NCBI GenBank assembly: GCA_025059995.1
Contig: JANXCF010000003.1
Coordinates: 248,001 to 312,000 of the forward strand
DNA length: 64,000 nucleotides
Reading direction: 5' to 3'
DNA from: Leptospiraceae bacterium
Lineage (GTDB): Bacteria > Spirochaetota > Leptospiria > Leptospirales > Leptonemataceae
Under the pieces are notes generated by a model. It was not told the DNA's origin and ran no database searches. It saw nothing but the letters and a program-made list of their open reading frames with translations. Numbering within the stretch: position 1 is the first letter of the stretch; the number at the start of each line of letters is the position of its first letter. This document shows, piece by piece, positions 856-5,886 of this stretch. The position numbers were made by a program, and so were the translations under genes.

Positions 856-1977
856 TTAAGGTTTGGAAAAGGTTTCTCTATGGATTCCCATCGACTCGAA
901 TTCTTTTTCCAATTCTTTGATGAGCTCTTTTGCCCGATACGAAAGTTTTTGGGGAACTTGGATTTCCACAATGACTAATTGATCACCTTTGTTATGGGTT
1001 CCCATAATTGGCATTCCTTTCCCACGAAGACGAAATATTTGATTGCTCTGTGTTCCAGGAGGGATCTTTAGTTTTGCTTTCTTTCCGTCAATCAAGGGAA
1101 CATCTATTTCTCCTCCTAAAATCGCCAAAGTAATAGGAATAGAAGCCTTTATAACCAAGTCATCCCCTTGTCGTTCAAAGATAGGATGTTTTCTTATGTA
1201 AGTTACTACATATAAATCTCCTGGTGGTCCTCCATTTAAACCTGCCTCTCCTTCGCCTTTAATACGGATCTTACTTCCATTCTCAACACCGGGTGGAATT
1301 TTTATGTTGATTTTTTTCTTTTTTAAAACTACTCCCTCACCACTACATCTATGACAATGCTCTTTTATGATCTTACCTGTTCCTCTACACTCAGGACAAG
1401 GTCTGGTAATAGAAAAGAAACCTTGCATGGTTCGAACTCTACCAGTTCCTTGACAAAAAGAACAAATCTGAGGTCTTGTACCTTTTCTTGCGCCTGTTCC
1501 ATTACAGTCATCGCAAGTTTCCTTTTTTGAAACTTCAATGGTTAATTCCTTACCTAAAGCTGCATCTTCTAAATCTATTTCTAAGTTATAACGCAAGTCT
1601 GTTCCTCTTCGAACATATTCCCCACCACTTTGACGAAAGCTATGCCCAAAAATCTCTTCAAAAAGATCAGTAAAATCACTAAATATATCAGAAAAATCTG
1701 TATAAGCTTTGTATCCAAAACCTTGTCCACCAAAACCAGCTCCATCTAATCCTGCTTTGCCATATTTATCATAAATGGCACGTTTTTCAGGATCGGAGAG
1801 GACCTCATAGGCTTCCGTGATTTCTTTAAATTTCTCTTCTGCACTTGGGTCATCACGATTTCTATCGGGATGATACTTCAAAGCAAGTTTTCTATAAGCT
1901 GACTTGATTTCATCTAATGTAGCATTTCTACTGACTCCTAAGATTTCATAGTAATCTTTATTGGTATTTGTTGGCAT
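856..1977 (-). CDS. dnaJ: Chaperone protein DnaJ
   Basis: Type I Hsp40 co-chaperone that stimulates the DnaK ATPase and delivers unfolded clients. All domains are present in 373 residues: J domain at 1-75 with the HPD triad at 36-38, a short Gly/Phe region at about 75-120, a zinc-binding region at 155-220 with four CxxCxGxG-type repeats, and the C-terminal client-binding domains. The start has an AGGTG ribosome binding site. It is the last heat-shock gene of the hrcA-grpE-dnaK-dnaJ run and is separated from dnaK by a hairpin with a T-rich tail (1999-2021), which could lower its expression relative to dnaK. Confidence 0.98.
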
Positions 1978-2024: not shown

Positions 2025-3932
2025 TTAATTTTTATCTTCATCAACTACTGTATAATCGGCATCTACAACCTTCTCTCCTTTCTTCTTATCATCATTTTGT
2101 GCATCAGAAGCATTCTGATAGTTACGAGAAGAACCACCTTGAGCAAATTTACTTCCGAATTCATTAAATAATCTCGATAGATTATCTCTTTCTCGATAGA
2201 TATCATCAATTCTATCTGAATCCATTACTGAACGTGCTTTTTGGATAGCATCATCAATGCGCTTTCTTTCATCAGGAGAAAGATTTGACTCTCGAGCTGA
2301 TTTTTCTAATGAATAGATAATATTATCGAGTTCATTTCTTGCTTCTGCAAGTCTTCTTGCTTGTCTATCTTTTTCGGCGTATTGTTCTGCCTCTTTGATC
2401 ATTCTTTGGATTTCTTCTTCGGTTAAACCACTCGTGGTTTCTACACGGATTTTTTGTTCTTTTCCGGTGGCTAGATCTTTCGCAGATACATGAACAATTC
2501 CGTTTGCATCTATATCAAATGTTACTTCAATTTGAGGCACTCCTCTTGGTGCTGGTGGGATGCCCACTAACTCAAAACGTGCCAAAGTTCTGTTGTCTCG
2601 TGCCATTTCTCTTTCACCTTGTAGCACATGTATGGTCACAGCAGTTTGGTTATCTGCAGCAGTTGTAAAGATTTGAGACTTTCTTGTGGGTATAGTCGTA
2701 TTTCTTGGAATGAGTTTGGTAAATACACCTCCTAAAGTTTCAATTCCCAAAGATAGCGGTGTTACATCAAGAAGAAGAACATCGGTGACTTCTCCTGCCA
2801 AAACGCCTCCTTGGATAGCAGCACCCACGGCAACGACCTCATCAGGGTTAACAGATTTATTGGGTTCTTTTCCAAAGATTTCTCTTACCAAAGCTTGAAC
2901 AGCGGGGATTCTCGTTGAACCTCCAACTAAGATAACTTCATCAATATCACTGGGTTTTAAGCCTGCATCTCGTAGAGCTTGCTCACACGGTCCTCTCGTT
3001 TTTTCAATCAAATGTTTGACTAACTGTTCGAATTTTGCCCTTGTGAGGGTATAATTCATGTGTTTTGGTCCGCTTTGGTCTGCTGTAATAAATGGGATAT
3101 TGATCTGTGTTTGATGAGTTCCTGATAGTTCAATTTTGGCTTTTTCTGCTGCTTCTTTTAGTCGTTGTAAAGCCATTTTGTCATTAGATAGATCAATCCC
3201 TGTTTCTCTGCGGAATTCATCAATCAACCATTGCATGATGGCTTGATCAAAATCATCTCCTCCTAAGTGGGTATCTCCAGCTGTCGATTTTACTTCAAAA
3301 ACACCATCACCTAATTCCAAAATAGAAATATCAAAAGTTCCACCACCCAAGTCATATACTGCTACTTTGAGGTTTTTGTGTTTTTTATCCAATCCATAAG
3401 CTAACGCAGCGGCAGTTGGTTCGTTTATAATTCTCACCACATCAAGACCAGCTATTCTACCTGCATCTTTTGTTGCTTGTCTTTGTTCATCATTGAAATA
3501 AGCAGGAACTGTGATTACGGCTTTTTTTACAGGATGTCCTAAGTAGTCTTCAGCTGTTTGCTTCATTTTTTGAAGAATGAAGGCTGAGATTTCCTGAGGT
3601 GTAAAAGAACCATAATCCGTTTCTACTTTCACACCATCAATACCAGAACGAATCACTTTATAAGATACATATTTTAATTCATCCTGCACTTCTGAAAATC
3701 GTTTCCCCATGAAACGTTTGATGGAACGAATTGTATTTCTTGGATTTGTAATTGCTTGGTTTTTTGCTAATTGACCTACCAATCTCGTATCTTTATCAAC
3801 AAATGCAACGATGGAAGGGGTTGTTCTGGAACCTTCGGCGTTTTGTATTACCACAGGTTCACCACCTTCCATGATTGCCACTACGGAGTTAGTTGTTCCT
3901 AAATCAATACCTATGATTTTTTCTTTTGCCAT
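2025..3932 (-). CDS. dnaK: Chaperone protein DnaK (Hsp70)
   Basis: ATP-driven Hsp70 chaperone, 635 residues, which is normal length. The N-terminal nucleotide-binding domain begins with [12 protein letters not shown] and carries the phosphate motif [10 protein letters not shown]. The substrate-binding domain includes the linker [14 protein letters not shown], followed by the helical lid and an acidic C-terminal tail. The start has a strong AAAGGAG ribosome binding site. It lies 18 bases downstream of grpE and works with GrpE (nucleotide exchange) and DnaJ. Expression should be under HrcA through the operator at 5818-5852. Confidence 0.99.
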
Positions 3933-3950: not shown

Positions 3951-4670
3951 TTAATTGGGATTTGGATTTGTCTTTTCTGAATCAAAATGATTATGACGAT
4001 CTGAAATAATTGCTTGTTTGGGTTTACCGACTTTTACAGAAGCTACCCTAAGAACATTTATCTTCTGATTAGGTTCTTCTTTGATATATGCTTTTTTATA
4101 AACTTCCAATACTACTTCTTCTTGTAAATCTTCTCGAATTTCCACATCAATCGCTTCCATTAAAGAGGGATTGAATTTGTCTCCTTTTTCCACAGATGGT
4201 TTGATAAAGTATTGTCCTAAAATTTTTAGAAATTCTTCGCGTATTAATTCTACTCCCAAGACAAAATTCAAAACTTCTGGATGATTTTGTCTTGAAGATA
4301 AAACCATGTCTAAATTATCCAGCACTCCAAACAATTTCTTTGCAAATTCTTCAATACCAATGCTTTTAGAATTTTGGATTTCTTGTTGAACCCTTTTTTT
4401 ATAATTCAAAAATTCAGCTCTTTCTCGTGCCCATTGGTCTTTAAATAAATCTACTTGTTCAAGGGCCTTTTGAAGTTCTTCTTTAAGGAATTCATTTATT
4501 TTTTTTAGTTTATTATATTCTTCTTCTAAATTGATTCCTTTTTGTTCATCTTCTGTTTTAACTGAAGAATTATCATTCGCATCATTAGAATCTTCGCTTT
4601 TTACAGATGACTCTACCATTCCTTCTGCGATATCAATGTTTGTAAATTCCATTTTCTCTTTTTCTTCCAT
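3951..4670 (-). CDS. grpE: Nucleotide exchange factor GrpE
   Basis: GrpE releases ADP from DnaK. The 239-residue protein has an acidic, low-complexity N-terminus (1-45), a long coiled coil (about 48-100), and the C-terminal beta domain, including the typical run from the GVELI segment to the VxVGKP-like end (ASVKVGKPK). The N- and C-terminal tails are slightly longer than in most GrpE proteins. The ribosome binding site GGAGG lies 6 bases before the ATG and overlaps the hrcA stop codon, which suggests coupled translation with hrcA. Confidence 0.96.
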   Translation of the reverse strand: MEEKEKMEFTNIDIAEGMVESSVKSEDSNDANDNSSVKTEDEQKGINLEEEYNKLKKINEFLKEELQKALEQVDLFKDQWARERAEFLNYKKRVQQEIQNSKSIGIEEFAKKLFGVLDNLDMVLSSRQNHPEVLNFVLGVELIREEFLKILGQYFIKPSVEKGDKFNPSLMEAIDVEIREDLQEEVVLEVYKKAYIKEEPNQKINVLRVASVKVGKPKQAIISDRHNHFDSEKTNPNPN

Positions 4671-4680
4671 GTTCCACCTC

Positions 4681-5781
4681 CTAACGATTTATTTTGGTAA
4701 TCATGCTTGAAATCATTAATCGAAAATACTCTAAGATTTGTATTACCGACTTATAGTTCATACGATTAGGTCCTACAACCCCCATTGCTCCTATTTTTCT
4801 ATCACCCATACTATAACTTCCCGTGATAACACTAAGTCCGTTCAACTGAGGATTTCGATCACCTTCGATAGAAACCACGATATCATCCAACTCCGAAGAT
4901 TGAACTAAAATATTGCGAAATACTTCTTTTAAGTTATAAAGCATAGATATATCTATGAGATGTTCACCACGACTCTCCAACTCTTCGATAAATCGATCAA
5001 TCCCAGCAATGATAACGTCTTCCACTTCGTTAAGAGTTTTAAAGTGAGCAGATAAGGTTCTCATAATCAATGATGCATAACGATACATTTCTCCAATAGG
5101 AGATACATCACCACTATTTAGAAGTTGATGGATCTCTTTGATATCCATACCACTAAAATTTTCATTTAAGAAGCGAGATATTTGTTCCAAAATATTTCGT
5201 GGGACTCTTTCTTCTAAGTGGATTAAACGACTATAAACAGAACCAGATCTTGTGAGTAATATCATCAACACCTCTTCACCACCTACATCTATGATTTCAA
5301 TATGACGAAGTATATTTTTCTCTAAAATAGGTGGTATAGCAATACCCATGTAATTCGTTAGAATACTAATCAATTTACAACTACTCTCTAAAATATCAGG
5401 AATTTCAAACTTTCTACTTAAAAACTCTCTTTGTATAATATTTTGTTTTTCTTTTGAAGGAGAATACGGCGGAAGATCAATAGGTAGGTTCTTTATATAA
5501 TACCGATACCCTTTTGTTGTTGGCAACCTACCTGCACTCCTGTGGGGTGCGTAAATATATCCCTTCTCATTCAATTCTGATAAGATGTATCGAACTGTGG
5601 CAGAACTCCACTTTAATTTATGCCTTTCAACTAATTGTAAACTACTTATCGGAACTCCTAAATCAATATAATCCTCAATCAATAAAAGTAAAACTACCTT
5701 TTCACGATGATCTAAAATATCATTAAATTCATCTTCGCTCCATTGTTTGATGGTAATAGATTCATTTACTTTTTTTTCCAT
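4681..5781 (-). CDS. hrcA: Heat-inducible transcription repressor HrcA
   Basis: HrcA represses class I heat-shock genes by binding CIRCE operators. The protein has an N-terminal winged helix (roughly residues 20-100, with SSATVRYILSELNEKGYI-like recognition region and the GRLPTTKGYRYY segment), followed by the GAF-like and dimerisation domains. I chose the ATG at 5781; a TTG at 5793 in the same frame would add four residues. Neither start has a well-spaced ribosome binding site. It is the first gene of the operon with grpE, dnaK and dnaJ, and its own leader carries the operator, so autoregulation is expected. Confidence 0.96.
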   Translation of the reverse strand: MEKKVNESITIKQWSEDEFNDILDHREKVVLLLLIEDYIDLGVPISSLQLVERHKLKWSSATVRYILSELNEKGYIYAPHRSAGRLPTTKGYRYYIKNLPIDLPPYSPSKEKQNIIQREFLSRKFEIPDILESSCKLISILTNYMGIAIPPILEKNILRHIEIIDVGGEEVLMILLTRSGSVYSRLIHLEERVPRNILEQISRFLNENFSGMDIKEIHQLLNSGDVSPIGEMYRYASLIMRTLSAHFKTLNEVEDVIIAGIDRFIEELESRGEHLIDISMLYNLKEVFRNILVQSSELDDIVVSIEGDRNPQLNGLSVITGSYSMGDRKIGAMGVVGPNRMNYKSVIQILEYFRLMISSMITKINR

Positions 5782-5817
5782 CCTTTCTTTCAACCCTTTA
5801 TTATTATGTATTACTTA

Positions 5818-5852
5818 AAAATTAGCAATCAATTATTTTGATTGCTAATTTT
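5818..5852 (-). promoter_or_regulatory. CIRCE-type HrcA operator, variant sequence
   Basis: A perfect inverted repeat of 13-base arms (AAATTAGCAATC and its complement as core) with a 9-base spacer. The canonical CIRCE is TTAGCACTC-N9-GAGTGCTAA. Here the core is TTAGCAATC-N9-GATTGCTAA, so position 7 of each arm is changed symmetrically. The spacer length, the rest of the arm, and the location between promoter and hrcA start all fit CIRCE. Confidence 0.9.
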
Positions 5853-5856
5853 GTTT

Positions 5857-5886
5857 CTAATAAAATATTTTTTTTAAAAAAGTCAA
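5857..5886 (-). promoter_or_regulatory. Promoter of the hrcA-grpE-dnaK-dnaJ operon
   Basis: Minus-strand TTGACT (fwd 5881-5886) and TATTAG (fwd 5857-5862) are separated by 18 bases, a sigma-70-like arrangement. Transcription would start just upstream of or inside the CIRCE operator, so bound HrcA would block RNA polymerase directly. Confidence 0.6.

Follow-up and report, generated by a model that had tools for sequence, protein, structure and literature searches.

The hrcA-grpE-dnaK-dnaJ operon of this Leptospiraceae bacterium is preceded by a variant of CIRCE, the operator of the HrcA repressor, in which position 7 of the half-site is A instead of C in both arms. The variant is real, and the fixation of A at the operators found in the genus is a lineage-wide change of a famously constant site. 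The reading that we favor, with a probability of about 0.77, is that the demand on position 7 was loosened across the family, that A was then fixed in this AT-rich genus in what would be a working HrcA operator, and that htpG was added to the regulon. The novelty is modest: what is new is a variant of a known operator, not a new operator type.

The CIRCE consensus of the B. subtilis type is given as TTAGCACTC-N9-GAGTGCTAA (PMC545781, PMC7464140). PMC5138195 and PMC545781 describe the element as extremely or highly conserved, and PMC545781 contrasts it with diverging operators and leaves the cause of changes in binding specificity open. For M. gallisepticum working CIRCE sites are reported with at most two deviations from the consensus (PMC5138195). 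A literature search returned no text pairing CIRCE with either variant half-site as plain text and no paper combining CIRCE, HrcA and Leptospira.

The window, i.e. the whole stretch of 64,000 nucleotides of contig JANXCF010000003.1 that was analyzed, contains the operator within a longer inverted repeat (Table 1). A preliminary description of the site, made from the letters of the window, had reported a perfect 13-base stem, a 9-base spacer and a base changed symmetrically in both arms, and direct reading confirmed this: the arms at 5818-5830 and 5840-5852 pair at 13 of 13 positions across a spacer of 9. The operator itself is a 9-base inverted repeat with a 9-base spacer, as in CIRCE, and agrees with the consensus in 16 of 18 bases, within the limit of two deviations reported for M. 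gallisepticum. Both deviations are the change of C to A at half-site position 7, one per arm, so the exact consensus is not present. The variant is also located where CIRCE is expected, at the predicted promoters of the hrcA-dnaK operon and of groESL. When the window was searched with a CIRCE-type pattern allowing up to three mismatches, this site was the single match and had no mismatches; any match at this threshold occurred in 10 of 100 shuffled windows (mean 0.11). In hairpin form, two extra pairs inside the spacer give 5818-5852 a 15-bp stem with a 5-base loop. The outer AAAA/TTTT of the repeat is absent from the other operators of the genus, as seen by comparing flanks, and probably reflects AT-richness. 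At gathering thresholds, Rfam found nothing in the window.

Table 1. Features of the operator region and of the hrcA operon in the window
Feature	Position	Strand	Basis
Perfect 13-bp inverted repeat, AAAATTAGCAATC-AATTATTTT-GATTGCTAATTTT	5818..5852	.	Sequence read directly
HrcA operator, CIRCE variant TTAGCAATC-N9-GATTGCTAA	5822..5848	.	Pattern searches of window, genome and upstream regions
Putative -35 TTGACT of hrcA promoter	5881..5886	-	Own reading of sequence
Putative -10 TATTAG, weak match, 18-bp spacing from -35	5857..5862	-	Own reading of sequence
hrcA, repressor	4681..5793	-	Pfam PF01628, E 2.4e-39; closest solved structure 1STZ
HrcA recognition helix, residues 64-76, SATVRYILSELNE	5566..5604	-	Helix in predicted structure; residue column table
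HrcA wing, residues 80-91, IYAPHRSAGRLP, including Ala82 and Arg85	5521..5556	-	Predicted structure; residue column table
grpE	3951..4670	-	Pfam PF01025
dnaK	2025..3932	-	Pfam PF00012
dnaJ	856..1977	-	Pfam PF00226, PF01556, PF00684

By our own reading, each of the four genus genomes has a TTGAC(A/T/G) element starting 33-38 nt ahead of its hrcA operator, and in these genomes the sites at hrcA, htpG and groES (inner copy) all have a TTGAC element ahead of them (12 of 12). The putative -35/-10 pair of hrcA was not among the output of the promoter scan, which requires T as the last base of the -10. With this pair, the expected hrcA transcription start would putatively lie at the edge of the operator. 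In C. jejuni, HrcA footprints are described as overlapping the transcription start (PMC7464140).

The four genes of the operon lie in the order hrcA-grpE-dnaK-dnaJ on the minus strand of the window. The C-terminal domain of HrcA scored 136 bits against a Pfam cut-off of 22.2, and the whole genome contains a single HrcA match. The hrcA start may be TTG 5793 or ATG 5781; in our reading the ribosome binding site is well spaced for neither. A phmmer search for solved HrcA structures returned 1STZ alone, and no HrcA-DNA complex was found. The predicted structure of HrcA (mean pLDDT 82 overall, and 85-96 per 10-residue block over residues 31-100) aligned to 1STZ along the whole chain with a Z score of 26.2 (320 residues, rmsd 6.5), the next best hit having a Z score of 12.1. 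From the winged-helix fold we infer that residues 64-76 form the recognition helix; the 10-residue blocks covering it have mean pLDDT values of 96 and 95, and wing block 81-90 has a mean of 85. The SxATxR motif of the recognition helix, as it appears in our alignments, is kept (S63 S64 A65 T66 R68).

The preliminary description proposed looking for the variant elsewhere in the genome, especially ahead of groESL, and regarded a canonical CIRCE at groESL as evidence against a changed HrcA specificity. The host genome (G000; 2.38 Mb, 95.8% complete) was searched with the pattern TTAGCA(A/C)TC-N9-GA(G/T)TGCTAA. With up to three mismatches five sites were found against one in a reversed control, and with at most one mismatch four against none. 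These four are all at chaperone promoters, upstream of hrcA (one), groES (two) and htpG (one), and have A at position 7 in 8 of 8 arms; C at this position is absent from all sites within one mismatch. The fifth match, on contig C8, has two mismatches, with A in one arm and C in the other, and the reversed control also yields one such site. The variant thus occurs twice ahead of groESL and also at htpG. No canonical CIRCE was found at groESL, since both groESL copies, like the hrcA and htpG sites, carry A in both arms.

The same letter recurs throughout the genus, which was sampled with four genomes. A search for TTAGCA-N15-TGCTAA, in which positions 7-9 and the spacer were unconstrained, gave 13 sites against five in the reversed control. 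All 13 lie at hrcA, groES or htpG, and A occupies the unconstrained position 7 in 26 of 26 arms. Upstream scans contributed two weaker groES copies, bringing the genus total to 15 sites with A in 30 of 30 arms. Upstream sites with more than three mismatches were excluded from the counts; among 5950 cases with shuffled upstream stretches, 0.1% came within three mismatches. In the 30 genus arms, position 9 was C in 14, T in 14, G in one and A in one. With the branching order taken from the HrcA tree, whose support within the genus is weak (86/34), a minimum of zero changes at position 7 and eight at position 9 is needed in the genus (sign test 0.004). Neutral decay is therefore unlikely, position 7 having remained A in 30 of 30 arms while position 9 changed at least eight times. 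The arms share descent and represent at most some eight independent ones, assuming four kinds of site with two arms each. With T excluded, the share of A by window composition is 0.49, and eight arms would all be A by chance with a probability of about 0.003, which is strong but not overwhelming.

An htpG operator was found in all four genus genomes (L192-L195; G000, G003, G002 and G001) with 1, 1, 2 and 3 mismatches, respectively. None with up to four mismatches occurred in the 21 other genomes scored (13 of the family and 8 of its sister family, f2), taking the best htpG match per locus and, for G013, with just 253 upstream bases. Five family genomes fell outside this comparison (G011, a fragment; G012, without a match; and G019-G021, outside the search). 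The simplest reading is that the htpG operator was probably gained in the genus, carrying the variant letter. The sequences thus show the variant to be regulon-wide as found, genus-wide, more conserved than position 9 and present at a probably new target.

Outside the genus, position 7 is mixed. The family (22 genomes) forms a single group on the midpoint-rooted HrcA tree, in which the genus groups first with g6 and next with g2 (100/100); g13, g5 and g11 are long branches of unsure placement. The other family members have G at position 7 in 30, A in 19, C in 17 and T in none of 66 arms, and the genus with A in 30 of 30 arms differs from this mixed state with a Fisher p of 3e-12, relatedness being ignored. 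T is thus missing from all 96 family arms scored. The best hrcA sites of these other members are C/C, G/C, G/A or A/G, and A/A only once (G015). The preliminary description took the symmetry of the change as a sign that HrcA had shifted its specificity and that the site was not decaying. Decay is indeed unlikely, given A at all operators found in the genus. Symmetry, in contrast, is weak as an argument, since family sites often still differ between their arms: of 33 sites in the other members, 12 have a non-complementary position-7 pair and seven more a G-T pair. The sister family f2 resembles the genus in having hrcA and groESL as targets and differs in that C occupies position 7 in 40 of 44 arms and the htpG operator is missing in eight of eight genomes; more distant relatives have C in 56 of 66 arms. 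Since the GC content of the loci is similar (28-39% in f2, 25-37% in the genus) and f2 mostly keeps C, AT-richness alone is insufficient to remove C.

Some further variation was seen in these upstream regions. Paired groES operators are separated by 81-84 bp in 12 family genomes, in several of which the second copy has four mismatches, and by 63-64 bp in f2 (five of eight genomes). In the four family genomes inspected, a TTGAC element lies between the paired operators (groES upstream set L162-L188). Another symmetric change, at position 3 (TTGGCACTC-N9-GAGTGCCAA), is present upstream of hrcA in the family members G005 and G013 (L140, L146), and a symmetric position-1 change (ATAGCACTC-N9-GAGTGCTAT) precedes hrcA in seven genomes of family f3 of the same class (L242, L243 and L245-L249).

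The preliminary description also proposed comparing the HrcA recognition helix with that of canonical-CIRCE species. The wing and helix turned out to be distinctive, but no residue tracks the operator letter everywhere. We compared 74 HrcA rows in a column table, having dropped L059 (HrcA split), L086 (same genome as G015) and L092 (near-duplicate of L063). Twenty rows are from the family, in which G010 lacks the DNA-binding part of HrcA and G012 lacks HrcA. Wing Arg85 is present in all 20 family rows and in none of the 54 others. Leu71 occurs in all 10 rows of the genus, g2 and g6, and Phe in the other 10 family rows. Trp62 is found in four of four genus rows and in 0 of 70 others, and Lys89 in three of the four. 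At residue 69, where other rows mostly have Asn or Lys, the family has Ser, His, Tyr or Asn, and the residue varies even inside the genus (Y, N, N, S) while the operator is unchanged. Residue 82 comes closest to tracking the operator letter within the family, and we regard it as a lead only, the link being picked post hoc among 11 genera: the genus has Ala, as does G015, a separate genome with an A/A site; the five family genera that show C in any operator all have Ser, and four of the six without C have Ala or Gly, the other two (g5 and g7) having Ser82. G008 and G020, with G/A sites at hrcA, have Ala82 as well. By eye, no residue in the 74-row table separates C from non-C operators across all lineages, and a single-residue protein code was accordingly rejected.

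The A/A pattern is not confined to the family. In a collection of 84,980 species the exact pattern occurs in 92 stretches, whereas by our estimate (257 billion bases, 18 fixed bases) chance would give about four if base composition were even. Fifty of the 92 lie directly ahead of a frame similar to hrcA (31), groES (12), dnaJ (3), dnaK (2), grpE (1) or groEL (1), and 41 gave no match to the seven query proteins. We searched 25 genomes whole, each chosen for having an A/A site. Nine Dehalococcoidia and three Elusimicrobia genomes have exclusively A or G at position 7 of their exact sites, TTAGCA(A/G)TC half-sites like those of the genus; of the remaining 13, six have C in at least one arm and three of these a C/C site. 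HrcA of the Dehalococcoidia, unlike that of the genus, mostly has His85 and Ser89 in the wing, and because the wing differs a purine at position 7 probably arose separately in those lineages. Of 80 genomes sampled from the class of G062 (Dehalococcoidia), 63 have an exact site, and the 75 sites listed hold C in 114, G in 26, A in 10 and T in 0 of 150 arms, so that among these C remains the rule. Position 7 is a soft spot of CIRCE generally, with T avoided. An exception is Spiroplasma sp. AdecLV25b (G081), which has a symmetric T/T site (TTAGCATTC-N9-GAATGCTAA, C55:55176-55202) as well as an A/A site. In 29 HrcA rows from A/A loci of other phyla, Asn69 is found in 27 and wing Arg89 in 12; for two of these rows, L031 and L032, the best site ahead of hrcA itself is not A/A. 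In Clostridia, Patescibacteria and Dehalococcoidia, A/A sites are found together with an HrcA whose recognition helix is ordinary. A standard helix can therefore live with A/A, no simple protein code applies, and the HrcA changes of the family may be unrelated to the operator letter.

Two readings that give the conserved element a role in RNA were rejected. An RNA hairpin in the 5′ leader, acting in message stability or as a thermometer, is highly improbable. The leader does fold well (z -5.5) and a symmetric change preserves pairing, but pairing is not maintained across sites: position 7 is unpaired in the non-complementary sites found elsewhere in the family (12 of 33), and 5 of the 15 genus sites lack a pair at position 9. 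In addition, one of the groESL copies, the second, is placed ahead of the -35 and so outside the transcript expected from that promoter, and the half-site is conserved as sequence. We consider the chance of an intrinsic terminator on the plus strand negligible, although a scan marks 5818-5852 as terminator-like. There are only three G-C pairs, thus no G+C-rich stem, and no plus-strand gene ends ahead of the element: the sole plus-strand frame of at least 70 amino acids just ahead (5514-5726) is antisense within hrcA, and both hrcA and the frame upstream of it are on the minus strand.

The more serious alternatives concern what HrcA reads. A true specificity shift, in which HrcA of the genus would read A through wing or helix residues and bind the canonical C site clearly worse, is a real possibility that we place somewhat short of even. 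It draws on the difference between the uniform genus and the other genera, on the A in the probably newly gained htpG operators, and on Trp62, Lys89 and the Ala82/Ser82 distribution; against it stand the exceptions to the residue-82 link and the tolerance of relatives for mixed arms. The fullest form of this idea is possible but doubtful: HrcA of the genus would have been re-specified through changes in the wing (Ala82, Arg85, often Lys89) and in the recognition helix (Trp62, Leu71 and an altered residue 69), demanding A, discriminating against canonical CIRCE and capturing htpG, while the family keeps the series C/C, G/C, G/A, A/A. Conversely, position 7 might hardly be read in the family, A dominating the genus just because its genome is AT-rich. 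The occurrence of G/A and G/C arms inside one palindrome and the variation in the class of G062 (75 sites listed, 80 genomes) fit such pure relaxation. It is nevertheless unlikely, as T never appears in the family arms scored although the window contains it as often as A, position 7 stayed put in the very sites in which position 9 turned over, and the similarly AT-rich sister family mostly keeps C. The mixed arms in the family, together with A/A sites beside an ordinary helix elsewhere, point to tolerance at position 7 having come first. Overall, the data lean to a mixture of relaxation in the family and constraint on A in the genus.

According to the favored reading of loosening followed by fixation, an HrcA dimer would bind TTAGCAAT(C/T)-N9-(G/A)ATTGCTAA over the transcription start of hrcA-grpE-dnaK-dnaJ, and likewise over the groESL and htpG starts and at a further groESL copy lying ahead of the groESL promoter. 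By analogy with known HrcA systems, it would repress these targets until stress inactivates it, with GroE as the link; involvement of GroE in the release of HrcA under stress is described for B. subtilis (PMC8957991). HrcA of the family would first have lost its strict demand for C at position 7, alongside the wing and recognition-helix changes. In the AT-rich genus A would then have become fixed at every operator found, position 9 would have loosened to C or T, and htpG would have joined the regulon. The resulting system shares with CIRCE/HrcA of the B. subtilis type the spacing, the TTAGCA core, the hrcA-dnaK operon and groESL as targets, a single HrcA and a probable location of the operator at the transcription start. 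It differs in having A at position 7 (30 of 30 arms), C or T at position 9 (28 of 30), htpG as a target, and Arg85 in the wing along with differences in the recognition helix. In lineages of this kind, regulons will escape a search that uses the strict canonical CIRCE. In this family, what appear to be intermediates can be compared in a small regulon that has just one repressor, so that the cause of specificity changes can be tested with few proteins and oligonucleotides.
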